DNA of 64,000 nucleotides, from the NCBI GenBank assembly GCA_018389105.1, contig JACATO010002186.1, forward strand, positions 634,501 to 698,500. Direction: 5' to 3'. Shown one piece after another: positions 11,323-63,772 of this stretch. Position 1 is the stretch's first letter. The number at the start of each line of letters is the position of its first letter. Source of the DNA: Nautilus pompilius (lineage: Eukaryota > Mollusca > Cephalopoda > Nautilida > Nautilidae). A program made the position numbers and the translations under genes. Below the pieces are notes generated by a model. That model was not told where the DNA came from. It did not search any database and worked only from the letters and a program-made list of their open reading frames with translations.

Positions 11323-11363
<41 letters not shown>

Positions 11364-12739: not shown

Positions 12740-12802
12740 TGTGCGATGAAGATAATCAACAAACCACGCATTACCTCGAAAAATAATAATAATAATAATA
12801 AT

Positions 12803-12833
<31 letters not shown>

Positions 12834-36507: not shown

Positions 36508-36555
36508 ATGAACGCACTGGAGGATGGCTCTCATACTTCATCTCAAAAATGTTGA
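36508..36555 (+). promoter_or_regulatory. Upstream open reading frame overlapping the ferlin start
   Basis: An ATG 16 bases before the ferlin ATG, in another frame, opens 15 codons ([15 protein letters not shown]) and stops at 36553-36555, past the main start. If the transcript begins upstream, ribosomes that use it cannot re-initiate at the ferlin ATG, which would damp translation. Both ATGs have a purine at -3 (CAGATGA and AGGATGG), and only the main one has G at +4. Expression effects are inferred. Confidence 0.5.
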
Positions 36556-36602
36556 AAACCTTCGAGGAAGAGCTGACAGGAAAGCTAAAGTGACTTTTAG
36601 AG
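36524..36602 (+). CDS. OTOF: Otoferlin-like ferlin, coding exon 1 (start of C2A)
   Basis: First coding exon of a ferlin of the otoferlin type, a large multi-C2 membrane protein that works as a calcium sensor in vesicle fusion. It encodes [19 protein letters not shown], then KAKVTFR and the first base of a Gly codon, followed by a GTAGGT donor. The residues and exon end match the N-terminal beta strands of the vertebrate otoferlin C2A domain closely (shared MAL, HLK, LRGR, DR, AKVTFRG). Dysferlin and myoferlin begin quite differently. Phase 1 at the donor fits exon 2 at 63714. The start is chosen because family proteins begin exactly here. Insect misfire-type ferlins are the nearest alternative. 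Confidence 0.88.
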
Positions 36603-39024
36603 GTAGGTTATTCATAATGTTTGGTATATTTTTGGAGGACAGATGACATTGCTTCATCAGTGTCCCACAAGTATTTTCCAAACTACACCACACATTTTCG
36701 TGTGCTGTTATTTGGTAGAAATAATTTGAAGAGAGTATGTGTTGAAATTGTAAAGTGTGGATCTGTACTGTGGAGTTTTAGTACAATGGATTGTTACACC
36801 TGTTAATAATGAGTACACAGGTGATGGGGGAAGATTAAAATATTTTGTTTATAAAAATAAAGGTGGAAAGCATTTGAAATTGTTTCTTTCCTCCCTATAT
36901 TTGTTTAAAAAGTTACTTTCAATTACATTTTTAGGATGATATGACTAATTTACAATAAACACAAATTCTCTGATAATATCTTTAAAAAGGAAAGGGAAAA
37001 AAAAGCTTGGTTAGCATAATAAACTCCAGTTTTAAAATTAAAATTATTAAGTTTTTTTTTTTCATTCACCTTGATTAAAATTAATGCATTTTTTGTTTGT
37101 TTTCAGAAAATGTAAAGTAACAATGAAATAGAAAATTTTTTCAGTTAAAACCAACCTCACACTACAGTTTCACTATTAAGTTAAAGTGAATATTTTTATT
37201 GATTTAATTTAATTTTTGAATTTAGTGGAACGCTAACACATTTATCAGTGATTTAAAATTTAACTGTCAAATTTATTATCTTTAATAACAAGACTAGGTT
37301 ATTTTGCATTTATATTTTGTAATTATTGATTACTAGTCACTTCCAGATTCTTACAGATACTAGGTACATTGCCTGAAAATGTATACTATTGATTATTTGA
37401 TAACTGGTTATTTGCAGTATACAATTAGCAGGTATGTACTGAATTGTCACAATAATTGAAAATGAAAGTATTACCACATGACAGACAGCATTTTATCATG
37501 TTGTACGTTGTACACTATATTATGTTATAAAGGGAAAATGTTTGTATAAAACTTAGTTTACATTACTAATAAACTGACCTTCCCATTATCTTAAGCATGT
37601 ATAATTTTGTGTATTAAAAAGGAAATGATTAGAGAGAAGAATCTTTTTTTTTTTTAGACTTTTATGATTTTGCTTGAAAGCTTGCCTTACAGAATTTTCT
37701 TCAGTGTATTGTTTGTAAATACGTAAACAGATTGCGTGTACCCACTGTTTTGTACATGACTTTGCTTGTGTGTTTTTATGTTAAATTATTACGCTTTTGC
37801 TTGTGGTTAGACAATTTTTTAAATCACTGATAAAAGGTTTCCTTTATTTTGTTGATGGCTTATTAAACCAAACATGCATTCTGTTTTTGTTATGCATCAG
37901 TAATACTGTAAAAATTAAACAAATTGACAAAAATTGAAAGAAATGCAGGTACGCATATTGTTGCCTATGTTTAAAAACAAAAGTTTTATTTTATTGTACA
38001 TGAATTGTATATCTATGTTATCATTTGGCAATCTTCTACATTAAAATCCCATAGTTCTAATATTTCTAAAAATTAATAATAATAATAATTAGAATGAAGC
38101 ACTAAAGGAAATGTTTAAAAAAATTCTCTACAAGTACATAAATATAAGGGAAAATACTTAAAATTTGCTTACACTTGATTTAAAGGAAATTACTGTTAGA
38201 AATGGAATTTATCAATTATCAAATGTCTTTTGTTACACTGCTATAAATTATGATTTAACAAAAAAAACATAAATACATTTATACTGTGCAATTTAAAATG
38301 TATTTATTTCTCAGTAAAATATATTAATATACAAAGTATTTAGAATTTAAATTTAGATTATTAAAATTTTTGTAGTTTTTAAAAAGGAAACAAGGTTAAA
38401 ATAAAGAAATGCATTTTGATACCATTATTTACTGGAATAGTGTTGGACTTAATAATTTTTGTAATTTCTTAAACATTAGATTTTAAATTTTCAGGCATGT
38501 GCAGAGTTTGAATTCAATTTTCCATTTAGCTTCATAATCTTACAGTTGAACAAATACCTTACCTCATTGATCAGGTATTTAATCTGTTTTTTAAATGTTT
38601 TCATGCTGTTTATGAGATTTTTCTCTCAACACAAAAGATTCCTGCAAATTAAATTGTTTAGGGAAATAGTTTGTCATTTCAAAGATTGGCATAAAGTAGG
38701 CTAAATAATTTTATTGTTGCTCCTGCTGATTGTTTTTTTAATTATTTACAATAAACTTGATTCAATGCATGTCACCAAATTAACAAGTAATTTAAATCAT
38801 TATTGGTGACTTGTACAGTAGTATAAAATAGTGACAAATTTTAGAAACATTTGTATTTGTTTGAAATAAAATACCTGCATTTCAGCCACAGTGCATCTGA
38901 ATTTCCTCTAATGCATCAAGGTTTGAAATGCACATGAATTTGGTAATTTTTAAATGCTTTTTTTCCAAAATGGCACAACATTAGCAGACATTATGTTTGA
39001 TTATCACAAAGCTTGCCACAGGGA

Positions 39025-39985
39025 CTGGTATGCTGGAGAGTGGAACCACCCAGCATCTAGTGGCAGATAAATTTAGCATAAACCAGAGTATCATTTCTAG
39101 GGTTTGAACTTGGCATCAAACTTTTGGTAGTGCTGCTAAATGACTTTTTAGAGGTCATTCCAAATCATCACTGCATTGCCAGGATCACATTTTGGTTAAG
39201 CAAGTGGGAAGAAATCATTTTCAGACAGTTGAAATCCAATTTTCAAAATGTAACAGGTGTTGCTTTCTCAACACAAACTAATTGAGTTTAGGATAATGGT
39301 ATATAGTCAGGAAGTGTATATCTTTGTACTACTAACCATGGGTCACAGCGGAGTTCAGCAAGATAGATGTAGACCATATTTGGTGGACTTTGAGAGATTG
39401 GACTCTTAAACCTTTCACATATGAGGCCAAATTTTGTCTGAACTTTACAAATTAATGTTTCAAAGCATTAAAGCCAAGGGAGAAGTTTTAGATGGCATCA
39501 TTGTACAACATGGCCAGTATGGTCGTGGTTCATTTATTGTATAAGGTGGGATTAACTCAGTTGGCAAGACTGACCTACCTACCTGTTTCAAAATGGAACC
39601 ATAATTGATGTAAGATACAGGAATAATCCTATATGTCCATGTGAGGTCATATTCTGGTGCTGTTGGGGATAACTTCATTCTTATAGATGATAACACCATT
39701 TACATTGTGCATGAATAGTTGAACAGTTCTTTGAGAAGGAGAAAATTATCAATTGGAGTGGTCTGCTCATTTTCTAGACAATTCATTTTAATGTTTGGAA
39801 CACACTTCAGGTTGCTATTGCAAGATGTACTCTGCTACCATGAATCTGGCAGGAACTTGGTGATGCCTTCATTGAGGAATAGGTCAATCTGACCCAGATC
39901 ATCCATCATTCATGCTAGAGGCTCTCACACAGGATACTAATGAGTTTCTGAATAGTTATTTGCCAGTTTGAAGCAGAAGGAGAAT
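39025..39985 (+). pseudogene. Tc1/mariner transposase relic
   Basis: Nearly full-length but dead Tc1-type transposase. In order: about 39031-39100, peptides QHLVADKFSINQSIISRVW-like read with substitutions (the sequence gives VADKFS, NQS, ISR across frames), the paired helix-turn-helix region. At 39655-39690 GAVGDNFILIDDN matches the second catalytic-Asp block (GDNFILMDDNARPH). About 39835-39905 GDAFIEE and VNLTQI match the C-terminal tail (L...W..IPQ). The WPARSPDLNPIE block is too decayed to read. Multiple stops are present. It lies in the ferlin intron in sense orientation. Confidence 0.7.
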
Positions 39986-42100
39986 GAAAAATCTGACAAT
40001 CTCAATGAGTAAAAATTCTTGTTTTTTTGAGAGGTGCCTCTTGATTTGTGGTGATATCATTATCTAAAAATATCTTTGACATTTAACAACATTAATAATT
40101 CTTTGAAGTATACTTATACATATGTTCAGATTTATTTCCTTGTTGTACCTACCACATTATGACAACAATATTGTATCTCTTGCTCCTTAGCAATTTTGAG
40201 TAGTATATTATTACCTGAACATTATTCATGCTCACAACTTGATAGGATTTAATTTCACATTACTATGGGTCTTTATTCAAAAATAATAATAATTTATGTT
40301 TTAAACCTATGAATATTTGTTTTTTGTCTAACATTATATCTCATAACACTTTCGTTTACATTATAAGTATAACTTCTATGTGAAATGGTCTTTGTGTGCA
40401 TTAGACCGATTAGAGTAAACTGGCAGTAAGCTGAACATTAAGTAGATTTATCAGTCAAATCTATGTCTACACTATTATGAAATCCTTGAATTCTAGCAAA
40501 ATACTTTCAAAATGACTAATTTTTTTAAAAAGTAACAAAAATAACTATCTTCCCCCAGTTTATCAAATGTATTTTTCAAATTTATGGGTAATGCTAATTT
40601 CTAGTCTTTGAAAAGTTTCCAGATTTTGATATACAAATATTATAATGAATCATGTAAATGTATGTCTAGTGCAGCTGAAATGTTTGAAAAAAAAATATCC
40701 TTCAGTTCCCTTTCTCGGCACTCACAAGACAACAACTAATTTGCTTCTAAAGATAGTAAAAATAAATGCTGTATAATTTCAAAGAATATTCTGCAAGTAA
40801 AATCTGGTTTACTGGAACATAAATCCAGCATGTCAATCAAAGTTGGAATTTTCTAGTGCTTAGACGTAGATATGTGAGGCTTAAAAAGAAAAAAAGAGGA
40901 TTGCCACAAATTAATGGAACCTTTCTTGAAACAACTTCACCTCAATATATTTCAATTTATTCTTTTTTATGGAAATATTTTATAATGGGCAAAATTTCAA
41001 ATAATCAGAAATGGAAATCTAATTGGAAGAAAATTATAAATATGGGTATATAAATTGTAATTTTGTGATTTTAATTTTTATCACAAAATTAAAATAAGTA
41101 AATATTTTTTATCCAACAGTATGTACACAACTATTAGTAGTAATAGGTATACAAAATACATCTAACGAATGCATTTTTCTGTGATTTTAGCACGCTAAAA
41201 TAAAAAATGCATATGAATTTAAATTGATCTTTAGTTCACAGTCAACTGCCTTACCAATGACTTTCTATGCTATTTCTCCAAACTAGAATTCTTTTTGTCA
41301 GCTTTTGTCTACTATCAGCTTTGAGTCATGGATCTTCCATCTTAGCTCTGATAATTAATTTACATTTATGTTGATAGAACTGTTATTGTTGATACCATTC
41401 TGCTTTTTAGCCTACTAAAAGTGTTTTTTGCATCACAAGAATACATTTACATACACAATTTATCTAAGAATAACTAAATATACTTTTATTTTTAGATTAT
41501 GTTGTTTTAAATAATAAACAATTAAAACCCACATGTTTTACAAATTTGATTGTCACTGCACTGCATCCCTTAATGGTTCTGGAATGATTTGCGATGTTGT
41601 TGAAGCATTAAGAATGCTGCTTTTTACATTTTTAAGAAGGAAGTCAATAAGAAAAACTGAATTTTTAAGAGAATTACTGAAGCTAAGTTTTTGCCAAATT
41701 TACTTAGTTTTGTCAAAGTAAAATGAAATAAGATAGAGGTTAGCCATTTTTTTTAATAATAATAAAAAATTGTAGCATTTATTGCAAAATGTCTATAATA
41801 AAGTTATCAAGATTTAACAAATAGAATTTGTTACAACAAACCAAATTTGGTGTATTTCTTTCTACATTAAAAGCAGCCTATTTTATGCATCCTCTACATG
41901 CAAGGTATTTTTATCTTGTAGTTATGGTTAAAACCAAAGAAGTAATACCTTAAAATGATATAAACGATGTTTTGGAATAAATAAATTTATTGGCACCTGC
42001 TCGTATAAATGTTCACAGATGTTACAGTATGTTGGGTTGATGGCACAAGAAAAACAGTAGTTGAACTTCACAAAATAGCAATCTAAAATGAGGTAGGCAT
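39986..42100. other. AT-rich intron DNA, nothing recognised
   Basis: Short open frames (for example 40856-41053 and 41533-41721) are Lys/Leu/Phe-rich, as AT-rich non-coding DNA gives. No splice-bounded exon or transposon block was seen. Confidence 0.4.
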
Positions 42101-42960
42101 GTCTAGTACTTTGTGTTTACACAATGGCCCATAGATATCACTAACGATTACCAAACTTAGGGAATATTCCTCTAAGAATGCCTGATCTATCTCGGGTGTT
42201 GGTTTGCAATGTCATAGATGGTAATTATGTTTACTCCAAAAGCGTTTTCACAATTCAGGTCTGTGGTACAAAAGTGCCAGAGTAGCAATTTAATATTGGA
42301 AGGACCTTCACAGGTGGGGGTGGTGCATGAGACCTCATTTTTATACTTGCTTACCAACAGATTTCCTTGTACACAAATGGTATAATGGTTGTAAGATATT
42401 CATCCTATATCACAACACTTCCACTAAAGAGGTTAATGTGATGTACAGTATATAGATGAAGGCATAGTTTTCATTTCTGTGGCAGTAAATAGTCAACCAA
42501 CCTTGCAGGTTGCTTTAATGAACAATACTGGCATTAAGCTAATGTGAGGCTAAATCTTGTACTGTTGACAATATTGGAGCCAAGCTTGCTTATGTGCCTG
42601 GATCAGAATGCTGCTGCATACAGGTTGGTGAGACCAGATGCTAGTCACATCAAGTTGGATGTTGGGTGTAGCCCAATAATACAATGTTGTCAAAGTGTTA
42701 GCAGAAATTTAGTTGAGCTACTCTTTAGTTGTATGTAGTGGTCTTTTGCCTGTGATTGCTCATGATCAACCTGATATCTTGGTCAGTCTCTGGTGAATCT
42801 CATAAGTCATTCCAGCATGCAGATTTCCATCATTTTATTAACATTGGAGGAATCACTGCCAATGTGATATACAGCTCTGTATTTGTAGTTTTATATATAG
42901 CAGAGTATATGGACCAGGTTATGATTTCCTTGTGCAAAATATGGCTGTCACAAGATGTGC
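42100..42960 (-). pseudogene. Possible Tc1-like relic, strongly decayed
   Basis: On the minus strand, TSIWSHQPVCSSILIQAHK followed by QAWLQYCQQ resembles the Tc1 segment with a basic RRP..GP.LT..HR.ARL.WA pattern. No catalytic block could be found downstream. It is less AT-rich than its flanks, consistent with old transposon DNA. Low confidence in the family. Confidence 0.3.
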
Positions 42961-43249
42961 CCATCTGATGATAAGTAACCAAAAAGAATGCATGCTTTGC
43001 TTTGTTATTTTTTTTATCCAATATCAGAAATTTTGAAACAAAAAGTGCAAGTTGTTTTTTGTTTACTTTTTATTTATTAAAGCTTTGATTTCAATATGGT
43101 TCTCAACCTGTTAATAACTGAAATTTGACACAAATGCCACTTATAAATAAAAACTCAAAGCAATTGAAATTTCTATTTCTTAGCCAAATTAGCTTATGAA
43201 ATTCACAATAACAGGTAATGGAAGAATAAGGTAGCAATTTTTATGGGCA

Positions 43250-44060
43250 CTCTTCAGAAATAAATATGCATGGTCAGTATTGGATGTAACTGCCTTTAGA
43301 CTAGATGCAGTTGGCACAACATCTGCAGACAAGCTTGAAATGAAGCAGATACCTAGCATCTCACTTGGTATTGCTTACCACTTTTGGATAAGGCTATCCA
43401 TATTGTGTAAGATCTGTGCACATGGATACCTTAGCCTTATGCATCTGCCAACCAGAGACACTGGTGGCCAGTCTATTGTAGTGATGACGATTGATCTAAG
43501 GAATGCAGTGATAATCCTATTTTGTTCTGGAATGTGAACTCTGCTGTCATTTGCTGATGAAAAGGTAGGACTGTTGCTTTCATATTCTCATCCAAGTAAC
43601 TGTGAATAATGAGGAGACCTTGAACTTTGACCAGGTGGGATGGGTTTGATTCTGCTAGCCATAATCTCTTCTTGCTGTTGCGTGTTCATCTCTTTAACAG
43701 TTGTGCTGAAGATCATTGTTAGCAGCATAGTGCTCTCCCTGCTGTCCTTCCCATGCATTACCTACTATCAGCTTAATCCAAATTAAACTGATTTTCATCA
43801 GAAAATATTTTTTTTCCATTGAATCTTTGTCCAAGGAATATGGCACATTGCCCATTCAATTTTGTTTAGTGATGATAGTTGCTTATTGGGAGACAAATGG
43901 ATGTATTGTGTGCAGTTATGCATGATGAACTCAGCTTCTAATAATTTCTCTGGATACCAAGTTTTTGATGGCCAGTTGAAGTTAAGGGTAATAAATTAAG
44001 CTATTTCCCTGTGTCCTAATTACTCATGATAGATCTGACTTGCAACTGATCTTCAAAACA
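43250..44060 (-). pseudogene. Tc1/mariner transposase relic
   Basis: On the minus strand around 43860-43780 the peptides IEWAMCHIPWTKIQWKK and then, after a one-base slip in an A run, KIFSDENQFNLD match the first catalytic block of Tc1/mariner enzymes (L.WA..H..WT...W..V.FSDE..FNLD). Downstream sequence is broken by stops but keeps a GLLIIHSYLDENMK-type stretch where G.....Y...L is expected. It is inserted antisense to the ferlin gene. Ends not found. Confidence 0.55.
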
Positions 44061-44814
44061 TTTGACAGTGGCTCTCTTTATCATTGTTTATATAGTGAAG
44101 TCCCATATTAAAAGCAAAGAATTTAAATTAAGATTGCATATTTTTAAAAACTGAAATAATTTTATATACATTTTTCATTTGCTGTAAAACTAATTTTCAA
44201 CTTGATAGTTTTTAAATTTAAAGGAATCTGAATATTTAGTAATTTTTCAGTGTAATGCTAAGAACTATTTCTGATAAACCAAACTACTTGGATTCAATAT
44301 TAGATGATCATCTAATTGAAAATTTTCATGTTAATATAAATAAAATGGTGTATTTATTGTAAATCTCATTTGTCATGTAACACATTTGCAGAACAATAAA
44401 CACATTTGACTTTCAGGAAATAATTTAGAGCAAATATTTCTCAGTAGAAGATTTATTTTCTGATTAGTGAAAATTAAAAATTTTAACTTTAGTTAGTAAG
44501 CAAGATGGATAACTAATACTACATTTGAATTGCTTTATATTTGTTTTGCTTTGTAAATGAAAGTGAAAGAATTTTTAAAAGAGAGGAAGCAGCATAACAG
44601 CATATGGCAGATAGACTGGCTTAAATTATTATAAATCCAACTTACTGAGATGTGCTCAAATATGCTTTTATGTAGAAAACATCTATCTTCACTTTCTTAT
44701 TAGTTAATGAAATAACAGCTGAAAAGTAGGCTTCAAATGTAGGAAAAAAATTCTTGGTATTGGGATTTTTGTAAAATGAATTGAGAGTAATTGCCTTTTG
44801 ATATTTGTTGACTA
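44061..44814. other. AT-rich intron DNA
   Basis: Nothing recognised on either strand up to the left terminal repeat of the next element. Confidence 0.45.
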
Positions 44815-46173
44815 CACTGGTCAACAAAATTAAATGTATTATACTCATTATGAATGCAAACCAATTTTTTTAGACTAATTTTTCATGCTGATTTCAAAAT
44901 TTCACTCCATTTGTATGCAGCACGTATCAGTTTTTAAGTAGATACATGCAAATATTTACATATTTGTATACATATATGAAATCATTAACATAATAAATAA
45001 GGACATATTATTTTTAGAAAGTAAATGAGTTTATTGAGTTAAAAATCATCACTATCATTCTACAAAGAGTGAATACACAAAAAATGGGTCAGACAAAACA
45101 GACAAAGTTAGAACAACAGAGTTAGAAACATTGTGACATGGATTTCCTGCGGTGTTCCTGATCTGGTTGATCACGGTAAAGTGTCCAGCAGTAGTCAGTC
45201 AGCTTACTGTCATTCCAGAAGCCTTGGTACCGTTTCTCCATAGCACTAATGTCCTGATGAAATCTTTCACCATGTTCATCAGTCAGACACTGCTCCAAGG
45301 TTATCTGTGAAGAAATCCAGATGGGAGTCCAAGAAGTGAACTTTCAGTGACATGCGACAACCCATTGCTGAGTAACATTTCAGAAGATTCTTGATGCCAT
45401 CCTTGTAGTCCACTGCCTTCTTGTTTTCCAAGAAATTCTCACAGATCCAATTGAAAGCATTCCAGGCAGGCAGTTCCAGTTCATCCAGTGTTGTCTTGAA
45501 GTTGACATCTTTGAGTACTTCTCTAATTTGGGGTCTGACAAAGATACCCTCTTTCAACTTTGCCTGTGTGATTTTGGGAAACTTTTCTACAATATACTCA
45601 AACTCTCTGGCATTTCTCTTCCCTAGTGTCTTTACAAACTGTTTCATCAGTCCAAGCTTTATGTGCGAAGGAGGATCTACAAGAGGTGTATTCTTGACGC
45701 TAGACAGTCCTGGCTGGTATGATGTTCTTGTCTGCCAGTTTGATTCCGAATAATGTCTGTCAGTTGTCCGACTATCCCATATACACAAGAAACAACAGTA
45801 TTTTGTGAAACCTGCCTGCATTCCCATTAACATCAGACCAATTATGACTGGACAATTTGAGATGTTGAAATACCTATTTCATCAGACAAAACTTGATTGG
45901 TTAATTTAAGATGATGAAATATTGCATCTGAACTATGCAGCAATGAATAATGTAGTTTATTTTAAAGGTATATTTCCATATGTAAATGAAATACATGCGT
46001 ACACGTCATTAATTGGAATTTCTATATAATGCATGAGCTAAAACCAAAAAACTTTCTCATCTTGAAAACTGTACATGATGTCAAAAAACTAATTGTATAT
46101 TTGAAATCAGCATTAAAAACTACACTAAGTACACCTTGACATATGCTTGATGAAAAATACTTGTTGACCAGTG
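44815..46173 (-). mobile_element. TIR-bounded DNA element with an uncharacterised gene
   Basis: Perfect 13-bp terminal inverted repeats bound it: CACTGGTCAACAA at 44815-44827 and its exact complement TTGTTGACCAGTG at 46161-46173, 1359 bases end to end. No target-site duplication could be read in the flanks. Inside, on the minus strand, is a broken gene of a family I recall as multicopy and unnamed in several invertebrate genomes. The CACTG ends recall CACTA-type and related superfamilies, but no known transposase motif was identified, so the superfamily is open. The element sits antisense within the ferlin intron. Confidence 0.65.
45122..45880 (-). pseudogene. Transposon-associated protein of unknown function, frameshifted
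   Basis: The main open part (45833-45279, 184 codons) holds KYCCFLCIWDSR, a Cys-x2-Cys pair typical of the family. It then has HIKLGLMKQFVKTLGKR, IFVRPQIREVL, AWNAFNWICENFLENKK and MSLKVHFLDSHLDFF. A short insertion after GAVSD shifts the frame. The family's next block (EHGERFHQDI, YQGFW, DYCWTLYRD) follows in another frame and ends at a TAA at 45122-45124. A second break lies near 45880 on the 5' side, where the frame is closed by a TGA. The N-terminal part of longer family members is not visible. Function unknown; a capture- or transposase-related role is possible only by association. Confidence 0.75.
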
Positions 46174-49100
46174 CAATTAGTGGTGGTGGTAGTAGTACTC
46201 TTCAATAGAGTATATTCATATGGTATAAATATTAATTGGGTATCTGTCTCATTCCTCATTTAAGTACACTTTCTTTTACAACAGAGACCCTGAAATGAGC
46301 AAAAATGAGATTGGCTGAACGTTTTCTGGGTCGTCAGTATTCTCTTACTTTATGTGAGTTTATATTGTGTTTGTATTCAGATATTTCTATTGTCACTTGA
46401 GGTAAAACTGATTATATTCAAAGAATCATTCAGTGACCACTGTACTGTCATTTGTTAACTTTTCATTTCTACTGTTGCTGTTTTGAATTTAAAATATTTT
46501 TAAAGTATTCCTGGTTTAAGATCTCATTATTATGAAACTCTGAGGTAGCTACACAATGAATGTATTTTAAATGCCAAGTTCATAAGCAAATGGAGTTCCA
46601 GATGCTCCTTCCCGATCAACAGTCTGAGGTTTTAACTGAATAACTGTGTACAATTTGAAATGTAAAAAAACATAATTGCATAAGTGTTTGTTTTTGTTTT
46701 TTAATAAGTGAACATCAGTAATCTTATGTAGGGATTTCTCAACATGAAAGAAATAATGTATCTTCATTCTACCAAAACCAAAAATATTTAATCAATCAGC
46801 TTAAATAACAATTGCAAAAAAAAAAAAAAAAAAAATCTAAAATATACACACGCGCACACACGTGCACACACACGCATATATACAGCTGCTTTTATCAAGA
46901 TAACATTTTTTTTGTAAACTACACCTACAAAAAAAGTATTAGGAAGATTTCTGTTATGTAAAGAAAAAAGTTTTACAACTGATTTTTTTGCAAAATATAT
47001 CTGTCTAGTACATTAAAAAATTAGTCTATTCAATTGTATTATAATTTGTATTATTGTTAAAATTTCTGCTTCATATTAAGGTTATTCACAAAATCTCCAA
47101 AATCATGCACTTACTGTTTAGGGAAATAAATTAAGTGGTTGTTTCAGTACATTTTAAAAGCAAAAAATGAGGTTGAAACTAATACATTAATTTAAAAGCT
47201 ATTATTTGTAGAAACCATTGAAATGTCGCACACACCACATACATGCACATGGGAGGAGAATTTTAAGGAATAGAAGAATCTTTTTTCTATTTAATAATTT
47301 TCTATTTAGTTTCTGATGTTTATATTGATAAATTAAATGTCTAATATCTATTAATATTCCAAATGTCAGTTTATTGCATTTATATGCATCTAACTGTAAT
47401 ATGCACTTGCTTTATTGATGTTAATTGTGTATCTGTTTAATATTGCTGGTGAGTTTCTGTGTGTGGGCAGTTCATTGTTCATTCTGATCGGTAGTAGCTT
47501 ATTTACATTGATGGTGTAGACCTTTAAGAGTTGTAATAAAATGAGAACAAATTTTTAGTTTGTATGTTTTAAAGGTGGCTTTTATTAAAAGTTCAGAATG
47601 TATTTATATCGCTTAGTTGTTTTGCGGGCATTAATTAATTTATTTTAATATATAATAATAATAATAATAATAAAATAGATATGAAAAAAATCAGATTTGG
47701 ATAGGTAAAATACTATATTTTCTTTCTACATATTGATTCTCTACTCTTCTGGGCTGAATTATTGTGCAAAGCAGAATATATTGATTGTAATGATACAGAA
47801 TGTCAATTTCAGCAACTAACCTGGTGCTTATATTATCAGGTATTTTCTGACATACTTCTGTTAAAATGATCAACTATGCTGTTAAAAGAAAACACCAGCA
47901 TATTAATAAATCTGATAAATAAAATATAAAACAATTACTATTACTTGTCAGTTCATAATATAAAAACATTCAAGAAAATAAGAAATCTTTAATATATTAA
48001 TATTAATCTTGGTATTGATTGAAAGTAGTTCACACAACAGCTATTTGGCTTAGATTGTCAATCACCAGCTTGGGACTGTGTGTTCTGTATCTTGAAAAAA
48101 TTTATACATTAAACGAATTGGTTTATTATAAATTCATCTTTGAACACAATTCAAAATGTCTATTAATGCCTGTTACAAAAGCATTATAAAATATTACTGG
48201 CATTAGAATTTAATTTTTTTTAAAATTTATTCTTTTCCTTTAAAAAAAATTGATCTTTTACTAAACTGCTCTCCATTTTACTAGACCAAGTCTTTTTGAT
48301 GAGACATTTTATTCTGTTGATTTTAACATTTACATTCTTTTTAAAGATAAGATTTTTATTTAGCAATTTAATGTCACATGTTGATTTTTGACAAAAACAA
48401 GGGCTTGTGTGTCATAATAAATTGAAAAAAAATCAAGAATTTAATAGTCTTTATCACTAATATTTTGGTTAATTCCATATGTTACAGACTGGCAAAACAA
48501 ACAGAATTTAAGGGATATGTCAAGGTCTCCTTATTTGCTGTTTAGGCAGTTCTATTATTTATCTGCTGTGTTATGAGCTGGTTCACCAGTGACAGTTACA
48601 CAGCTCTACTGAATAATTTAAATGATTCAGTTTGTAATATTACTACTGGAAAGCAGTGCACCTGCCCTGTCCCTCATTGCAGATGTTTAAGTTTTTAACT
48701 GAGTATTTCTAGCTTAAAATATTGCATGGTATCCTTGATCAACTCTAACCCTGGACTTTTTGTATCTTTTAAAATCTTTTGATTTGGTTTTAATAGTTAT
48801 AATAAGTGCACACAATGCATTATCTAACAACAAGATTCAAATGAAATATGCCATTTTGTATTAGTTTTCTTCAAGGAATCTAAAGACCATAATGAACATT
48901 AATCTAATTTACACAACAAAGTTTTCAAAAATAATGTACATTGGAATGGATAACAAAAGTATATTTATTTATACATGTAGCCTGCCTTTTTAAAATTGAA
49001 AATTTGCTAGCTTACTTGCTATATTAATTGATCTATATCTAAGAAAAAACTTAGGATCTTGATGATGCACAAATTAATTTGTGTGTTTAAAATGCTAATT

Positions 49101-49900
49101 TGTAAAATACAGAAATATGTGGTAAGGTGCAGTTTTCTCTAAAAATGTTAGTGTCAAAACAAACAAATACTCTCTTATAAATTTAGATTTGAACTGCATA
49201 CACGAAATCTGTCAGATATATAAATTTAAATAATGATATGGTAATAGCAATAAAAGATTTTTCTTTTCATAATGTTTATCATGGGAAGAACATTTTAATA
49301 AATAAAACAAAGAAATGTAGCTGCTGTTCTTGAAGATTTTTAGGAGAATATCCCGTGTTTGAGTGAGGATAAACAAACATCTCCATGTAGATTATAGTAA
49401 ATACATGTTTCATGAAAATATACAGAATAATTTTTGCTGCTGGAAATACTAAGAAATATACGTGTGCACTTATCTGAACAGGAAATATCATATAATATTT
49501 AATATTTTTGCTTGTCCAAATGTGACTTAGGACATTAAAAGTTACTGTTTTAGACAACTGTAATATTTTGGCATTACTCTCTGCCTTAACATTTTGTTTA
49601 TATAATCATTTATCTAAAATAGCTTTACTGTTGTTTTGTTGAAGTTAAGGACAATTTCTGGATTTATCACTCAGCCAGCTGGAATCAATGTTTTTTTCCT
49701 TCCAGTTTCATTTGCAAGATTTTAAGTTTCACTTCTTAGTGTCTTTTGGAAGACGAAATAACAATTAAACACTAAAACCCCTCTAACAGTCAAATGTATG
49801 GACTGGGCTAGTGAGATCAAGGGATGCCAACAAGATGCCTGTATTGGTTAGACATCTTACAGGAATAGGTTTGGTGCACTGGTGCATAATATAGTTTTAT
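46174..49900. other. AT-rich intron DNA, nothing recognised
   Basis: Poly-A/T tracts, a small AC-rich run at 46850-46880 and a short AAT run at 47656-47673. No exon or transposon block recognised on either strand. Confidence 0.4.
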
Positions 49901-53138: not shown

Positions 53139-53280
53139 CTTTATGGCATAAAATGGTGATGACTAGCCAAGATGATGCGCACACACAGACTAGTGAGGAG
53201 TTGGATGCTGAAAGCTTTAGCTTAAACATTGTTGATGCTAGGACGCTAAATGATTGGACAGTTCTTGCTTCTCGCTGGTA
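53139..53280 (+). pseudogene. Coding-like segment interrupted by the hAT insertion
   Basis: To the right of the hAT element the + frame reads MTSQDDAHTQTSEELDAESF, then SLNIVDARTLNDWTVLASRW, and stops. The composition (acidic, few Lys/Phe/Asn) is unlike AT-rich noise. The open stretch on the left side of the element is in a different frame. It may be the C-terminal part of an unrecognised retrocopy or transposon gene split by the insertion. Confidence 0.3.
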
Positions 53281-55000
53281 GAATCACTTTCTGGGCACAA
53301 ACTTCTGATGTTATCTCCTCTAGTCAGGTTAGCGCATCTTTTCTACACAATGGAAGAGACTGCACAGGGCTGTTGATCCAAGAAGTTAAGATTAATTACA
53401 ATAAACGGCCACTGGTGGTCCCCTGAGGTCATCAAAGCAAGTCTTACCATAACAGTACATTATTTACTGATGTTTCATATTTTTTCTTTATACAGCAACA
53501 TTTTTTAGCACCTAATTTTTGAAAGTATTTTGGTACTGAATTCGTTAAATTCATTATCAAATTATGTGCAGTTTACCAAGTTAAGGTGTCCTCCCTTTAA
53601 TAAGTTGTGTACAAATCTGAGTTACACATGAAATCTGATTTAAAAAAAAATGCTTTAGGTTTATTATGTCTCCAAATGTAAGTCACTTCTAGTAGTTCTG
53701 CTTTTGGAAGTACCCTGGATGATTTTCTGCTGGCCTATTTTGTCAGTAGAGAGAGTTTGTTAACAACAAAGTTGCAGGAAGACTAGTATATGTAATGGGG
53801 GCTTTTAACCACCACCTATTTTTAATTCTAAAGACTTTGGCAAAGCAAGAGAGTTCAAAACCAAGAAGACTGCTAAATTGGAATTCCCATTACATGTATT
53901 ACTGACTAATATTACTTAAAAAATCCAATCACTTGGCAGTTAAAATAACATCATTACAAATGTATATTTAAGAAAATAGTTATTTCCATAACTCAGATAA
54001 CTAATTAGTCTTTGAGGAATTTTAAATGCAGAAAATCTTTTAGGGATGTATGGTACCAGCTTCACTATTAAATTTATCTTAAAGATATATAGTTGTTGTC
54101 CTGCCATATTTAGCATTGACATAACCTCAAGTTTCATTTAGAGACCAACTCTTGAAGAATTTAAGGTATTGCAGGTCTGGTGTTGGGAGATTTAGTTATG
54201 ATTCATTTCTCATATTAGTTTATAATTTATTTGGGTATTTTAATAAACTCTTTAAACAAAGTGACTTTATGAAATCAACTGGTAATTTGAAGATGTGAGC
54301 TACAGCTGAAAAGGTTGCTGTTGCGCTGAGGTGATAGTATACATTACATAGCAAATTGCTGAATTTTTTGCTTGACCATATCATTTTTATCTTATTTTTC
54401 CAAATGATAGTATATAACTTGGGTTGTGAAAAGATTCATTTTATTTGATTCAGTATTTGTCCTAAAAAATGAGGCACCCTTCCCTCTATTCCATCAATGG
54501 CATTTGAGCCCATTGGGTGTGCTATAGTTTGAAACAAATTAAGCTAGGGGGAGATTAATCTGAAACTTAACCATTTTTTAAAAGTTTTTATAAATGAATG
54601 AATCTAATACTTATTGACAAAATAAAAATAAAGCTCATTATTTTTAATTACTTTGAAGTATACAAAGATTGATTATAGTAGAAAGTAGATGTTGCAAAAT
54701 CATTCTACTTAAATGTATGTTGTTAGATCCAAGGTTTTAGATCATTATGGACTGTTTTTGGAAAAACTTTATACATTGACATGAACATCAAATAATAAAA
54801 GGTGGATTTACTAATAAGCTTAATAAACATAAATATTTTTGAAAATTAAAATGCATTAAAGGATAAAAATTTGTGAAATAATATGATTAAAAGATGATAA
54901 ATTAAAAATAGGTTTAGAATGCTTAGAATATCAAAATAATGCTGATTCATATTTTAACATGCCCCTCACAAGCCAGGTAGTCACTCTTTACTAGGGGGTT
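53281..55000. other. AT-rich intron DNA, nothing recognised
   Basis: No conserved frame, exon or transposon end seen on either strand. Confidence 0.4.
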
Positions 55001-55620
55001 GTTGAAATTCCCTAGGACATCTTTGCAGAAGCATCCGAAGTGGTGATATTTGAAAGTATCACAGATTTCAACACATCTATTGGAAAGAAAATTGAAAAGG
55101 TTAAAGGCATTTGAGTTTTCAGGACTACACAGTACAAATGTATACTAAAGTATGCAGATATAGTCCCGAGGCAATACAAGATGCGAAGCAGGCAGCACAC
55201 GTGATCAATTCTGACTCTGCACTGCCTCCTGTGCTTCTGTGTCAGGAACTGAAAAAGCTTCTAACTTTACCATCGGTAGGAAAGCTGCTCATCTGACTGT
55301 CGTCCTTTAACTTCATCAGCAATGCCGCGGGACTAATCGCATAGTAATTTCGGGTACTACTATCATTTTACTAGACATTGTTAAGGCTTCACTTGAGTTT
55401 CTACTTACCAAGTTGGGGAAGAGATTTTTCAATAATTTCTCAGGTGATGCACTGAGAATAAAACAGAGACCAGCAAACGGCTTCTCTCCGCCCTCGGAGA
55501 TTCTCAAACAGAAATAAAAGCGAGATCTATTTTTCGGGAATGCCCTGGGTTCTTGTACCAATGAGAAAGTGACCACCTGGCTAGTGAGGGGTTAGGGTTA
55601 AACATTTGTCAATGATCTTA
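55001..55620. other. Less AT-rich patch of unknown origin
   Basis: GC and CpG content rise relative to both sides. An 86-codon minus frame (55316-55576) includes FPKNRSRFYFCLRISEGGEK, and a + frame at 55111-55296 includes SALPPVLLCQELKKLLTL. Neither is recognised. It is probably an inserted repeat older than the hAT element; no terminal repeats were found. Confidence 0.3.
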
Positions 55621-55849
55621 TGAATGACAAAAGTTAAATAAACCCCAGATCCCCTTATACTAGGGATAGACAAAATAATAGGGATGTTTTTGAGAAAGAT
55701 AAGTATCAAATATTATTATTTTCTTTCCATAATCTTGAAATGATATTTAGGATGACTGACTTAGTAAAGACAGAGGTTGTTTGATGAATGGATTCCTTGA
55801 AGATATCATTTAGCCATATCAGTTTTTGTATATATTAAATGTCGATTTA

Positions 55850-58020
55850 TAAAATAAAAATGCGAAGATGATAAAAAAGAATTTGATCTCATCTGAAAAA
55901 AGATTAAAGAAACAACCTTTTGATGAAATAGGAAAGCAAGATTTTTATTCCAGAATAACAAAATTATTTTAGCTGATTATAAATACAAATAAACAGGTGC
56001 ATTTAGCCTTCCACAAAATCTAGTAGCTAAAAAAAAGGACCTGTTTAATCAGGAGAAATATATTTTTGGAGGTAATGAAGTTGAGGCTACTTTACCCTAA
56101 TCATGTAGCAATTATGAAAGAAAGGCTAACTTATGCTGGTTTTAATAAATCTTGGGGTTTAGCTTAGTGTTGATGCAAAAATAATTAATGCAGTGACCAT
56201 GAAAACTAATATTGTGCTTAAAGCAAAGCACGGTAACCTTAGCTTTTGAGTTTGACTGTCTGTTTTATTTTTTGGTTTTGCGAAGAGATTATGGGATGAA
56301 GTATGATGCAATTTTAGAGCTAATGTCATTGCAGTGGGAAAAGTTAATTTAGTGAAGGCAGCACTATATATACCTCATAGACCTGAGCAGCAACTGATTT
56401 ATAAGTTGATTGAAAATAAACAATGTTAAGGGTTTTGCTAACAAATTGTGATTTAGTTGTAATTCTGCAAACTACTAATTTCGATTGGAGGTTAACTATT
56501 ACAGCAGGAGCAGAAAAGCCTATATGTGCTAGGATTTCAAACCATCAAAGATGATAATCAAAAAGCATAACCTTTTATACAACTGAACGTTTAAATATGA
56601 ATGACAATAAATTAGTAAATCTATACTTAACATGATTTTGATGCTATAAACTATGTAACAAAATAGTATTAGATTAGACCTTAAACATATTGTTAATTGG
56701 GACACTGATGTACCTTTTGCTAATACTAGTCTCCTTGGTTTAATATCTGCTCATGTAATGTATGACCTTGATGGAAGAATCACTAAAAGTAACATGGATG
56801 CATATACTTTGGTTTTATAAATATGGTTATAATGAATAATGTTGCTATCAGTTTTACATATGAATTATATGGAGGAGATGCATTAAGTATTTAGGTACTA
56901 TTAATTTACCAAGGAATAATAATATTAGCATTAGGAACAATTCAAATGATATGGAAAACAGTATGCTAATTTTAGATACTTATGAAGGAAGACATGACAA
57001 TTGTTAATAAAAACTGACATTCATTTATATTAAAGCTTCTAAATAATAAATATTAAAAAGAAAAATGATTATACAAAGCAGGGTATGGAGGTTAGCTGCA
57101 TGGCTACCCCAGAAAACTGCTACTAAACTTCTTTATTCTTTTAGATGTGTCAGGAAATTCACATGATTCTCTGTTGGAGAAGAGTGAAGAGAAATCTCAC
57201 TAGGGAAGTGGTACAAATCAAATGATTCCCAACCAGGATTTGAGCTTGGTTCCTAACCATTGTTGCTGAATGCTTAGTTATTGGATCATATTGGTACATT
57301 TGCTAACCCAAATTATCCATTTCCAACAGCTGAATTAATTGGAGCTAAGTGTGACATTCAATAATTGAGTTTAACTAAAAACAAACTCATCGATCTATTT
57401 TTGGAGGATTTAGATTTTAACTATAAGACATGAAACAGAATCCTACTCACAAATAATGGGTGGCATTGTCATCTGTTTTAATGTTGCAATTGATAAAATA
57501 GAAATTTTTGTAAGATTGGAGTTTCTGTTGATGGCATAACTTTACTTAAAAAAAGTTAATTTAATATCGCTACTTGATGTGAGCGGAGAAACAAAAATAG
57601 GAGTGTTTCCCATAAATAATAAATCTGAAAAAAAAATAACATTAAAAGAACTAAACAATATTGTTTAAAGAAAACAAAAGTATTCGTGGCATATGAAATA
57701 AGTAATATTTGTACTGTCAGTATCAAATAATTCTAATGATGAAGTTTGTGCATTGAATCGTCCTAGCGAGCTATTAGATTTGTTGAGGAGCACCTGTACC
57801 CAACAGACTTCATTGTGTATCGAGACCTTAGCAGCTAGATTTCTTATAAGCACTGAAAACTAGAAATGCATAGATAGGATCAGAATCATAATCTGTTGGA
57901 ATAAATTTAATGCATTATATTTGCTGAAAAAAGTGGACAATTTTTTGAGAAATCAGTATGAAGTAAAGTTATTTGAGAATATAATTGATATTGAATTGTA
58001 TATTTTGTATTTATGCAGTA
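55850..58020 (+). pseudogene. Long decayed coding-like region, gene unknown
   Basis: Successive + strand open stretches, each about 50 codons and in shifting frames, have protein-like composition. They include IPHRPEQQLIYKLIE near 56380, a 54-codon stretch at 56659-56820 containing FANTSLLGLISAHVMYDLDG, PNYPFPTAELIGAKC near 57310-57355, a 54-codon stretch at 57702-57863 containing LNRPSELLDLLRSTC, and a roughly 50-codon stretch at about 57893-58040. Together they suggest one or more sizeable intronless genes now broken by frameshifts. Candidates are a large transposon (Maverick-like) or an old integrated large DNA virus. I see no diagnostic motif and make no family claim. Confidence 0.4.
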
Positions 58021-58040
58021 TGACTATTGATTCATATTGA

Positions 58041-59699
58041 ACCAGCTGTATGTAGATCCATATAAATTCTAAAGAGAGGTTTAAGTGGAAAAAAAATTGT
58101 AATTTGAAGCTGATTGCGAACAAAATAAAATGTTGAGTATGATTGCAACTTTTTCTGTTCCTCATTAAAAAGAATTAAATATCATCAGATTTGTTAAGAC
58201 TAAATAAACCCTTTTTTTAGAACTGAATTCATGCATTTACTACAACAAATATATTTAATGGAAAATTATTTCCATTATTATTTTTCTCTAAATGCATTTT
58301 TAAAGCTTAAAAGCATTTGCTTATAGATCCATTTAAAAGAAATATATATTCTGAAGTTTCATTTTATTGTCAAGCAAAAGAGCTGAGTTAAAAAAGAATT
58401 ATTTGATGCTGACTGGTTCCCATATGACTGACTACTGAAGTGATTGATTTCATAGCATTGTGAACATTGTGTTTTTTTTTACTTTTTAAAAAAGTTTCAC
58501 TGATCCATACATTTTGATAACTATATGCCATATCTTTGTTTAGTTTGATTAGCTGCCTGCAAGAACTTATTTTAAAAATATTAGTAATCTTTTTAGCAGA
58601 AGTTGATATGGCTAATTTTGTGCATAAGACTTTTTTAGGTTTCAGTTATATAATCTTATCAAGCTGTAGACCTCCTTGTAGATTGCTTTATATAATATCA
58701 GTGACTTTGTATAAAAATTCATCATATATTTCTATCATCCTTTTTTGACAAAAAATAGTTTTTGTTTTAAATTTAGTTGGTTTTTTTAAAGTTCAGAGTT
58801 TATCTTTGATGCAACTAACTAAGACTGAATTACTTTATAGGATATTTATAAGGAATTTACATTTAAATATTTACTAAAAGAATTTATAAAGATCTATATT
58901 ATATTGCCTTTTTGGATCATAAATATGAAATAAAAATTGGACTTGTTAATTTTCTTTGAAAATTTGCAAAAGGACCAATGTGCACAGATGATAGGTTCCA
59001 ATTTTAAATTCAAAACAAGTTTAATAACATAATTTGACAGGTTTCAGATGAAAAATATGCAAGCATTTTTGTTGGACTAAATTATTTGTACAGAGAATTG
59101 ACATAAGTAAATAGACATTTAAGTTTTTAAAAACACCTGTTTATTTGGTACTATACATTAAATTTTTTTTGTTTTGTGTTGGTATCTATTTTTGGAGACA
59201 TTAGAGTTACATACTAAGTCAGTCATTGTGCAAACTTTGGGCTAACTTATATGAAGATACTGGGTAACTCAATCATCAGTGCCCCCTCTTGGCATCTCTG
59301 GTTTACTCCAAAGGAAGGGCAAACCAAGTACATTTGGCTCCATTTTAACTGCAGGTGCTACCTGAACAATGATTGTTTGGCATCAGTCTTCTTTTGGGGC
59401 TCCACTCTGGATTTTCTGTTAAGATTTACTTCTTTGGCCTTCATCTTTCCTGAAATTTCCACAAGGCATTGTTGCTAATAACCCATGGGAGAGAAATGTC
59501 CTCATTGTGACTTTTTCCACTATAATAGCCCTTGGAAAATTTCTTTATCTACATGTTCTGCTGTTGAAAGTTGCACAAAGAATTTTCATATATTCATCTG
59601 CCCAAAGCCATTGATATCTGAGAATGTAGCTCATCCACTAGTTTCACCACTGAGGGAATATCCCTTCTGTTGATTTTACCATTGACCTTTGCTTGATGC
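58041..59699. other. AT-rich intron DNA with a GC-richer patch
   Basis: The patch at 59230-59700 lies next to the Tc1 relic and may be its 3' end plus another repeat. Frames there are not recognisable. Confidence 0.35.
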
Positions 59700-60330
59700 T
59701 ATATATTACACTAGCAAAATGTGACTTGGGTTCATACTTTGTTGTAGCCCTTTGTTTTATGTATGACAGGATTGTGCTGATACATTTGGATGAGACTGAC
59801 AATCCTGGCACAATCTGTATTAGGGTGTCTTAGCCAGATTCTAGCAGACTTGTATAGTTTCTTTGTGAACTTTAGCACTATTTTTCAAAAATATTCCTCT
59901 TTGGACTGATGATCATTGGCATGGACAGGCAGATTCTTTTGAAAATGAATTGTTAGGTAGAAGAAAATTCTTTCAAAGACTGTTAGCTGTAACATTCAGT
60001 GGCTCAAATTTCACACATCATGTAACACTGCCATATTTTATCATAGCTTGCAGGTGGTTCAATGAAACTTCCCATTTTGGATGGTGCCATGCATAGCCAT
60101 TGTGAAAACATGGACTCTTTGGAAAAAATGACAGTGTTCCAATGCAGTCTGTGACTGATATTGCTTTGTATGAGGAATGGTTTACATCTTGCCACTCTTA
60201 TATTATACCCTATGCTGTAGAGATAATGTCTGATGTTTCTTGTAGACACTTGCATGTTTTGCTACATTTGTAGCTAGTTATTGGAATTCAGTTTCCAGGT
60301 TTCTCTTAGTGCATAGTTTTTATTTTGTTG
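59700..60330 (-). pseudogene. Tc1 transposase relic
   Basis: Minus-strand frame 60255-60004 reads STRNIRHYLYSIGYNIRVAR, then CKPFLI, then LHWNTVIFSKESMFSQW. This matches the Tc1 pattern VSTRTIRHYLHSIGYNSRVA....W..VIFSDESMFSQF almost residue for residue, with the first catalytic Asp changed to Lys. Around 59890-59840, IFLKNSAKVHKETIQ corresponds to the second block (IFQDDNAPVHTA), also with lost Asp residues. It is therefore inactive. The subfamily differs from the other four relics in the window. Confidence 0.78.
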
Positions 60331-63300
60331 TATTTGAACATCCTTGATGCATTTAAATAGTTGTCATGGCTTTTTTTGAACTGCACAAATATCCTGTTGA
60401 CAGAAGAATATCCAATGCTTTGAAAATTTCCTGCTGGTTACCAATGTCTCATTGTTCAACTATTTACCTCCCTTTCAAAGTCCATCAGATTCCTTGAACC
60501 TTCTGTAAAGGCTGAACTGTCTGCAGACTGAATTTTCCTCTGACCTGTACCTGTTGTTACAGTTTTCAATCATATGCTGATCATGTGATTGGAATGGCCT
60601 TTTTTTGAGTCTTATGGATTGTTACTTATATTATCAAGTCTGTATATAATCTAATGCTGTTGTAAGAATTTATAAAATTAAACTCAATAAATATAAAACA
60701 ATGAAGGGTTTTTGACTGCTGATGCATCATAATGGCAAAAAAATTTTTAATGGAAGTCAAGTTTTTTATTAAATATAAATTTTATTCTTCTATTTCTGTA
60801 TCCTTGCACCTTTGATTTTTTGTATTCTCTATAGTATGGTTTTTCTTAGTTTCATTTGATTTTCAATTTTCTTGGAGAGTGCTTGCGTAAACTGTTAGAT
60901 GGTTCAAAGTTTCTGTTATTAGTTGATAGTATTTAGTTATTAAAATTGATATTTATCCATATAGATAATTAACCATAAATTTTGAGAATTTAAAAATTTA
61001 TAACTAAACCCTCAATTTTAATCAGTTTGATCAATTTTTTTTTGGTTTTTCTGGAAAAAATAAGATTACAGAGCTTTTCAGTTTAAATTTTAAAAATGTT
61101 TTTCATTGGTTTTAGTAAATTTATTTAACCAATAATGTCACCAACATTTGTTTATTATTATTTCTAAAGAGACTATCTGATATTTAATTACATATTCTTT
61201 GATTACTGGCACAAACACATTTTTGAACTGGAGGAAGATTTTTAAAATAGCTTCTATCATCAGATGGTATGGAGGTGAGATAGTTTTAGGGAAAGGTGAA
61301 CCTCAGTGAAGCTAATACCATTAAGTAGACCAATTTTACACTTTTATCAACTATTGATCTATTGCTAGTTGGCTGTTTTATAGCAAAAGGAAAACGTTTA
61401 TAAGTAATGGCCGTTAATAATTTGTATTTTACCTGTATAAATCACTTTATCTTTGTGGAACTGCTTAAGTTCTTGAAGTAGTCATAGTTTTCTTTTTTTT
61501 TACATGTTGCTAATAAGAAAAAGGATCTTTTAGTAATTCTTGTAGTTCAAAACAATTTTTGTAGGTAATTTTAGTTAACAAGGATCTTTAATAAGTGTGG
61601 ATTTAATTTTGAATTTCTTTTGGTGTCATTTAAGATTTAACACGATTAAAAATTAAGAACTTATTTGCTGCATATTATATTTATAAAGGATCATAATGGC
61701 TTTATTAAAATTATCAGATAAAATTTTATTGTGAAAGAAAAGGTAGTAGTACAGGAACTACACCTTTTCTGTTTGTATTTGTTTGTTGTTGTTTTTTTTT
61801 TACTTTTTGAGAAAAATGTAATATATAAAATTTAGAAAATTAAAAATATTGTTTTAGTCTTTTTTTTATTTAATTTAAACAATTATAATGCCAAAAAATA
61901 TTTTATGAACATATTAATTAATATCTGTTGCACACATTTAAAACCATAATCATTGTAATTGATTGGGCTCTTGTTGTTTTCACTGAGATGTTTCTAAATA
62001 TTGTTTGGTGAACAACTTTAATGTGGAAGAGTATTCGGTATATGGTTGTTTTTGTAAAATGTAAATATCATCATCATCATCATCATACTTAAAAGAAACC
62101 ATGGAATTCAGAATCATGCATATCAAACAATAATTAAAGACAGTAATAAAAAATGACGGCAACAGTAAATTAAATTTTTTTATTAAGATATAACGTTATT
62201 TCATGAGTACAGAAATAGCTAATGAATTTCTGCAGTAACTGGGCCATCTACTCGACATACTGAGCAATTCTGGTTTGTTGTCACCCCCCCCACCTTAGAT
62301 TGACAACATTCCTTTGTGTGTATTATATATATGACACCAAGCCGCCTACATCACATAGACGGGGCTAAATATTAAGTCTCTGCTTACATTATGTAGTATG
62401 ATGTTTATTCCAAGTCTCATAAAAAAACAAGACAGTTCACAGTTAGTAATTATTAATTAATACTCTACAAGGAAAAGCTAATCATTTGCTTACATGTGCT
62501 ATCCTTTTTCCTAAGATTAAAATCTTTTGAGTTTCTAATATTGCATTGATCCTTCCCTGAGATGCTCTGAAGCCATGGAGTACAAATAGTTAGTTGCATT
62601 ACACTCTCTTAGTTACCTTAATGATTTCCTTTTATTTGCTGTGCCTTAAAGAAACCTGGTGGGAAAACATGGAGAAAAGCGGATTCGAACATATAAGAAT
62701 CTCGATCTACTATTGGTGGGATTGCTTGCTTTATTACTATTAAGAATTCTGAATATAATCTTTAATATGTAAAAGTTTAGGCAAACTAAAAATGGTAAAT
62801 AACTTGTATTGAAATTGTTGTATGATTTAAAACTGCAATAATAAACTTTTGTTGCAGAAATTTAATTGTTTTTATTTGAAGATTAACGAAATAACTGTTG
62901 AAAAATCTCAGCAAATTAAACACGGTGTGGGAATTTAACCCTTGGAAACCTAAAGCCATTGAATGAGTGCTCCTTTGTATTTTGAAAAGGTGTCTAGAAA
63001 ATTTTTCTTTTCAAATTTTTATAGTATTAAGCCCAAGCTTTTTATATCTAATGACTAACCAATAGAAATAAATAAACTAGATTTTAAAAGAAAAAGCTAC
63101 ATTTTTAAAAATAATTTGCAAAACACAAAATTCAGTTTAAAAAGAGTCTGTACTTTGTAAATTGTGCATTTGGTTAACTGGCACTGAGTTGTTGTCAGGG
63201 GTAGAGGAGTTCTGCTGCGATATGTCCTTGGTGAAAGAGTGGTTAAAACTATATTTGATTATTAAAAGTAAGAATAGCAATTTGTATTAAATCAAAGTTT

Positions 63301-63660
63301 GGAAATTTTAAAAATTTAAATTTACTTTATTTACTTAATTACTGAGTGGCTGACAAATATGTTTATTTTTTGAATAAAAGGATATTTGGGAAATGGAACA
63401 ATGTTTCAATAGAGCAAGTGTTTCATCATGTGCACACACGTTCACATCCCCCTCAAGTTTTCAAATCATACTGAATGTTTTCAATTTATTTTACAATATA
63501 TAACAAAATAATTAGTTGAAATTATTTCTTTGATAAAAATTAAAATTACTTTTTGGAAGGTAGGAATCAAATTCTGAATTGGAGTTATAGTATGTTTATT
63601 CTTTTAATGATAAAACTCAAAAACTGCTTTGAATATTTGAAATGGAACTTTTCTTTAGAA
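60331..63660. other. AT-rich intron DNA before ferlin exon 2
   Basis: Poly-T and poly-A runs, a short ATC run at 62067-62086, and nothing else recognised on either strand. Confidence 0.4.
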
Positions 63661-63689
63661 AAATCAATTAAATTTTTCAGTTCTTGATC

Positions 63690-63713
63690 TAATATTTTCC
63701 TTTTTTTCTTCAG
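63690..63713 (+). promoter_or_regulatory. OTOF: Splice acceptor of ferlin exon 2
   Basis: A long pyrimidine tract ends TTTCCTTTTTTTCTTCAG immediately before the exon, with an exact AG at 63712-63713. Confidence 0.85.
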
Positions 63714-63772
63714 GTGTGCCACATTACTCCAAAGTAATTGAAAATGTTGAAGGTAGTGCCTGTTTTAATGAG
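63714..63772 (+). CDS. OTOF: Otoferlin-like ferlin, coding exon 2 (C2A continued)
   Basis: 59-base exon between a strong acceptor and a GTAAGA donor. Only one frame is open: with the last base of exon 1 it gives GVPHYSKVIENVEGSACFNE. This corresponds position by position to the second coding exon of vertebrate otoferlin (shared YS, V, EN, EG, A, F, E) and ends on a codon boundary just before the conserved TF.W strand of C2A. Exons 1 and 2 total 138 bases, exactly 46 codons, with no gap in the domain. The remaining C2 domains, Fer/DysF-type parts and C-terminal anchor lie outside the window. Confidence 0.88.

Follow-up and report, generated by a model that had tools for sequence, protein, structure and literature searches.

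Two short exons 27 kb apart as the likely start of an apparently intact otoferlin gene in Nautilus pompilius

The 64,000-nucleotide stretch of DNA considered here (the window; C2084:634501-698500, where a window position is the position on contig C2084 minus 634,500) contains two very short plus-strand exons that we judge, with a probability of about 97% and on the strength of sequence comparison, to be the start of the coding sequence in an apparently intact mollusc otoferlin (Type 2 ferlin) gene. An earlier note on this DNA had claimed an otoferlin gene start at this place, and the two exons do open a 40-exon otoferlin gene of an invertebrate, with 38 further exons located beyond them on the same contig and strand. 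The gene as such is of a known kind, otoferlin.

The first two exons and the gene beyond them

Exon 1 (36524..36602, plus strand, 79 nt) runs from the start codon to the first position of codon 27, giving 26 residues and one base, and exon 2 (63714..63772, plus strand, 59 nt) supplies residues 27-46 and ends in phase 0. The first coding intron (36603..63713, plus strand) spans 27,111 nt, interrupts the frame in phase 1 and has GT-AG ends; the donors read GAG/gtaggt at exon 1 and GAG/gtaaga at exon 2, and the acceptor of exon 2 reads cctttttttcttcag/GT (that is, ttcttcag/GT). The claimed arrangement, exons of 79 and 59 nt lying 27.1 kb apart, is thus present at these coordinates, in phase and with GT-AG splice sites. 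The start codon has A at -3 and G at +4, with an in-frame TGA 15 nt upstream, and is overlapped by the out-of-frame reading frame of an upstream ATG (36508..36555, plus strand, 15 codons plus stop).

Joined in frame, the two exons encode a 46-residue peptide (P0001) whose top match in a search of solved-structure sequences is the otoferlin C2A crystal sequence 3l9b_A (E 5.8e-13). The alignment covers all 46 residues without gaps at the very start of 3l9b_A and contains 31 identical positions, divided between 21 of 26 for residues 1-26 and 10 of 20 for residues 27-46, whereas dysferlin C2A reaches an E value of only 0.65 in the same search. The otoferlin-type C2A that had been proposed for these residues is therefore borne out, and the translated joined exons, searched against solved structures, gave otoferlin C2A as best match. 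Against Pfam, the peptide gave no match above the curated cut-off. Across the genome (727,640,739 bases searched), a search scoring its best candidates only yielded, at E up to 10, two matches, exons 1 and 2 themselves.

For the remainder of the gene, we took 260 kb rightward from the window end along the contig, with human otoferlin as bait. The human sequence used as both bait and yardstick agrees with the variants listed in Table 2 of PMC13258488 at 70 of the 71 residues compared, the single disagreeing residue, Ile1967, being one reported on another transcript (a conflicting second label, Val1945, was excluded). The resulting gene model comprises 40 exons from 671024 to 952328 of the contig, on the plus strand, a span of 281,305 bases with 5,825 coding bases, no internal stops and GT-AG at all 39 intervals. 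It extends to a stop codon and a C-terminal hydrophobic (transmembrane) segment in exon 40, recognised by visual inspection and from the alignment with human otoferlin; of 1889 residues aligned with the human protein, 1132 are identical. The next C2A exons, which the earlier note had proposed looking for to the right, follow exon 2 with lengths of 89, 100 and 242 nt, the last extending into the linker.

The reading frame of the model has one break: the linker exon equivalent to human c.4024-4090 did not turn up in the interval that separates exons 27 and 28. That interval hides at least one linker exon and hence is not one true intron; the acceptor after the gap is in phase 1, as in human. The linker between C2A and C2B is also shorter here than in human, so another exon may be missing from the model at that point.

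Within this gene, the first intron ranks second among the 39 intervals (median 4,642), behind one of 27,373 that may itself hide unfound exons. An intron of 27 kb, which would be spliced out whole, is thus long without being exceptional in this gene, and we see no feature of it that calls for a special explanation. It carries a copy of a dispersed repeat (44804..46180, minus strand) whose 95-97% identical sister copies lie further along the gene, in intron 3 (C2084:706651-708015) and intron 9 (772612-774172). At E up to 1e-10, 1,377 of the intron's 27,111 bases have a counterpart elsewhere in the 324 kb. The repeat copy encloses a 199-codon open frame (45279-45878, minus strand) with no Pfam match. 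More broadly, 9 of the window's 25 long open frames were compared with Pfam and gave nothing above the curated cut-off, and tRNA and Rfam scans returned no matches.

Otoferlin identity and the C2A domain

Above the Pfam cut-offs, the gene product contains C2, FerI, FerB, dsrm_Ferlin (dsRNA-binding-like) and Ferlin_C, and no DysF family appears among its matches at E up to 0.001. Tandem C2 domains, FerI/FerB and a C-terminal hydrophobic segment place it in the ferlin family. Within that family, the lack of a detected DysF domain and the closeness of otoferlin, the nearest solved relative in both C2A and C2D, place it in Type 2, and a C2A of the otoferlin kind is present at the N-terminus. The 133 residues of exons 1-5 match 3l9b_A with an E value of 5.1e-39 (65 of 124 identical) as against 9.7e-5 for dysferlin C2A; for the C2D exon, the values are 2.3e-35 for otoferlin, 2.4e-29 for myoferlin and 6.9e-26 for dysferlin. 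The likeness to vertebrate otoferlin (OTOF, FER1L2) thus extends over domain order, the absence of detected DysF, the presence of C2A and the overall identity given above, while the shorter C2A-C2B linker and a tandem second copy of a C2B exon set the gene apart from it. With dysferlin and myoferlin (Type 1) it shares a superfamily and multiple C2 domains, but theirs are the proteins with DysF domains, and their C2A is only distantly similar to that of the gene here.

A search for FerI across the genome gave two matches, one in this gene and one on contig C75, the latter probably a candidate Type 1 ferlin. As a separate observation, the same genome carries 14 matches to molluscan-type haemocyanin units, in two runs of seven, which mark it as that of a mollusc. 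Part of one unit scores 300 bits against 4yd9_C and 281 against 1js8_A, both single-unit chains, and 235 against 8tnv_A; these are squid, octopus and gastropod haemocyanins, respectively.

Three other readings of the first exons and of the gene have to be weighed. Both exons are short, and residues 27-46 are identical to 3l9b_A at only 10 of 20 positions, so one might suppose that they are chance open frames beside splice-like signals, with a fortuitous likeness to C2A. To gauge this, we scored all splice-bounded candidates of equal length and phase on both strands of the window: exon 1 scores 100 (runner-up 4) and exon 2 scores 46 (runner-up 7), and without the splice-site requirement the runners-up reach 20 and 28. 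The best splice-bounded scores from 100 first-order Markov shuffles average 2.2 and 5.9, with maxima of 16 and 27, well below the observed 100 and 46. The remaining otoferlin exons then appear in their proper sequence, on the same strand, and it is these downstream exons that refute a chance origin, leaving it a negligible probability. That the gene encodes a DysF-type (Type 1) ferlin, or some other multi-C2 protein, might be entertained on the grounds that myoferlin and dysferlin match the C2D exon too. Yet otoferlin is ahead in both C2D and C2A, DysF was not detected, and the genome's other FerI locus, on contig C75, offers its own Type 1 candidate; the preference in C2A and C2D, together with the absence of detected DysF, refutes this identity, which we regard as extremely improbable.

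The remaining alternative concerns the C2A exons and is best seen against the published record. In the statement of Lek et al. 2010 (PMC2923515), C2A is kept among Type 2 ferlins only by human otoferlin and its sea anemone orthologue, and the table of that survey leaves C2A blank for the limpet (Lottia gigantea) and louse (Phum) genes. Contrary to that statement, C2A is present here in a mollusc Type 2 ferlin. The limpet and louse genes are described as protostome otoferlin orthologues with C2B to C2F strongly conserved (PMC2923515), and the present gene is probably another of that kind; unlike it, they are reported there to lack C2A, whereas here the domain is split over five exons, the 5'-most of a long gene. 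The sea anemone FER1L2 is alike in being a Type 2 ferlin with C2A (PMC2923515), but it is a cnidarian gene. The limpet and louse entries, and the shortness of the first two exons and their distance from the rest, could be read to mean that exons 1 and 2 are a relic, with transcripts starting at an internal promoter and skipping C2A. A relic would decay, however, and exons 1-5 retain intact splice sites, phases and frame, with 65 of 124 residues still identical to the mammalian C2A. The 2010 result also has a commonplace explanation: with 23.9 bits, the C2A here lies just above the Pfam C2 cut-off of 22, and a general C2 model easily misses a domain that barely exceeds its cut-off. We therefore consider a relic unlikely and hold to the reading of exons 1 and 2 as the working start of the coding sequence. 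The 2010 survey likely lacked a mollusc C2A because its short, far-upstream exons and weak profile score let it slip past either gene models or profiles. In the literature searched, which takes in few subscription journals, we found no later correction of the 2010 statement on C2A and, apart from that survey, no account of the mollusc C2A or of where introns lie in mollusc otoferlins; sequence databases may well hold mollusc otoferlins with C2A.

By homology, the product would be a vesicle protein, tail-anchored by its C-terminal segment and working like vertebrate otoferlin. Its C2 domains would bind lipid, Ca2+ being bound mainly by the later ones, and the multi-C2 protein as a whole would couple Ca2+ to membrane fusion. 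The human protein is needed for hearing, and OTOF is a deafness gene. Human C2A is described as having no Ca2+-coordinating residues (PMC2923515). A neural role for otoferlin in molluscs is plausible, because otoferlin expression in the pleural-pedal ganglia of Aplysia shifts with CO2 and training in the results given by PMC11296145.

A second copy of a C2B exon

Downstream of the window, exon 9 is present in two copies, at 764012-764096 (copy 1) and, 4.4 kb farther on, at 768464-768548 (copy 2) of contig C2084, both on the plus strand. Each is 85 bases long, is entered in phase 0 and left in phase 1, and is bounded by AG and GT. Between the copies, 15 of 28 residues and 44 of 85 bases are identical, and the differences fall 11, 9 and 21 times at first, second and third codon positions, respectively (chance of at least 21 at third positions, 0.014). 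Taken on its own, copy 2 gives only a weak tblastn match (E 0.029 and 0.058). When every 85-base candidate with splice-site borders in the 324 kb is scored (976 on the plus strand, 940 on the minus), copy 2 reaches 63 against copy 1 (runner-up 11) and 71 against the human segment (runner-up 5), while the control scores of 50 shuffles never rise above 32 and 33. When the final model was compared with the 324 kb to look for duplicates, 43 matches touched the 40 exons, all of which were hit, and the exon 9 copy was the only duplicated exon besides them.

The reading frame is kept by either copy alone, and inclusion of both or of neither leads to an early stop. Since frame and splice sites are kept and both or neither breaks the frame, the pattern is that of mutually exclusive exons, and we consider it fairly probable that the two 85-nt exons are alternatives that would swap a 28-residue segment of C2B and so provide two forms of a vesicle-fusion sensor. 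The segment (human residues 321-348) probably comprises the third membrane-facing loop and the adjoining strands, a placement that we take from the C2 fold. Copy 1 is the more similar to the human segment (19 of 28 residues, as against 15 of 28 for copy 2); both donors are off consensus (gtagat and gtattt), and copy 2 could be out of use. The alternative exons of human OTOF that PMC10394277 names are 6, 31 and 47/48, and a tandem C2B exon is not among them. A literature search judged by titles found no mutually exclusive ferlin exons.

Intron positions relative to human OTOF

The first two junctions of the gene would coincide with human junctions at c.79 and c.138; for these two positions, and for a human junction at c.227, no printed source was found in the literature searched. 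For the gene as a whole, we relied on junctions with a printed source, beginning with the 12 distinct positions of OTOF splice-site variants in Table 2 of PMC13258488. Nine of the 12 are reproduced exactly to the base (c.765, 897, 1579, 2214, 2406, 2523, 3570, 4227 and 4960), as compared with at most 3 of 12 coinciding in 20,000 draws of random positions. As to the other three, c.4023 is exact if the residues on the gap side are aligned without an indel and lies one codon off in the automatic alignment; c.4090 falls at the gap between exons 27 and 28 and allows no call, the next acceptor found having the same phase; and c.5291 has no counterpart, the intron here lying at the equivalent of c.5342.

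Four more positions are exact: c.1392 (PMC7755797), c.5813 (PMC9019055), and c.960 and c.5103 (both PMC10557071). The first two are a biased sample, having come from a search for five positions named beforehand, of which two were found, and such a search finds matches only; the last two were met by accident during the search for c.79 and c.138. Across the four papers, 13 of 16 sourced junctions are therefore exact, one is exact if ungapped, one (4090) allows no call and one (5291) is absent. The earlier note's proposal that intron positions in this gene predate the split of the lineages thus holds for the gene as a whole, and we infer from these alignments that most of the positions go back to the ancestor that molluscs and vertebrates share. 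Ancient introns common to distant animals are already known, so this conclusion is sound but unsurprising.

For the family, a mollusc otoferlin that keeps C2A stands against the 2010 ferlin survey, and suggests that otoferlin starts are missed where first exons are very short, introns run to tens of kilobases and C2A barely reaches the C2 profile. Most of the tested OTOF introns can be traced to an ancestor common with molluscs, and the duplicated C2B exon, if it is used, would constitute a natural experiment on the role of the segment that it encodes.

Otoferlin start and introns

At the 5' end of the otoferlin gene, the start codon is overlapped by an upstream ATG frame of 15 codons (window 36508-36555), which is out of frame with otoferlin itself. 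Introns 1, 3 and 9 of this single gene each carry an insertion of one dispersed repeat, with 95-97% identity; its copy at window 44804-46180 contains a minus-strand open frame of 199 codons.

Other repeated sequence in the window and assembly

Two arms of approximately 1.35 kb each (window 10057-11405 and 12740-14108), separated by 1.33 kb, form a large inverted repeat with 98.5% identity between the arms (1 mismatch and 2 gaps; perfect over 1309 nt), and this structure is either a foldback element of recent origin or an artefact of the assembly. At window 24461-24898, open frames that overlap on the two strands resemble a relic of a hAT-type transposase; a Pfam search with these frames returned nothing above the cut-off. 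Elsewhere in the same assembly, the contig pairs C2019/C2314 and C557/C1362 gave twin matches in the C2 family and haemocyanin searches, the scores within these pairs being equal or near-equal, and this suggests either uncollapsed haplotypes or genuine gene duplicates.

Tandem copies of the C2B exon

Exon 9 of otoferlin is present as two tandem copies (L015 and L016), which lie beyond the window at contig positions 764012-764096 and 768464-768548 (129512-129596 and 133964-134048 on the window scale). Both copies are 85 nt long and have the same phase, with 15 of 28 residues in common, and they are probably mutually exclusive alternative exons within C2B.
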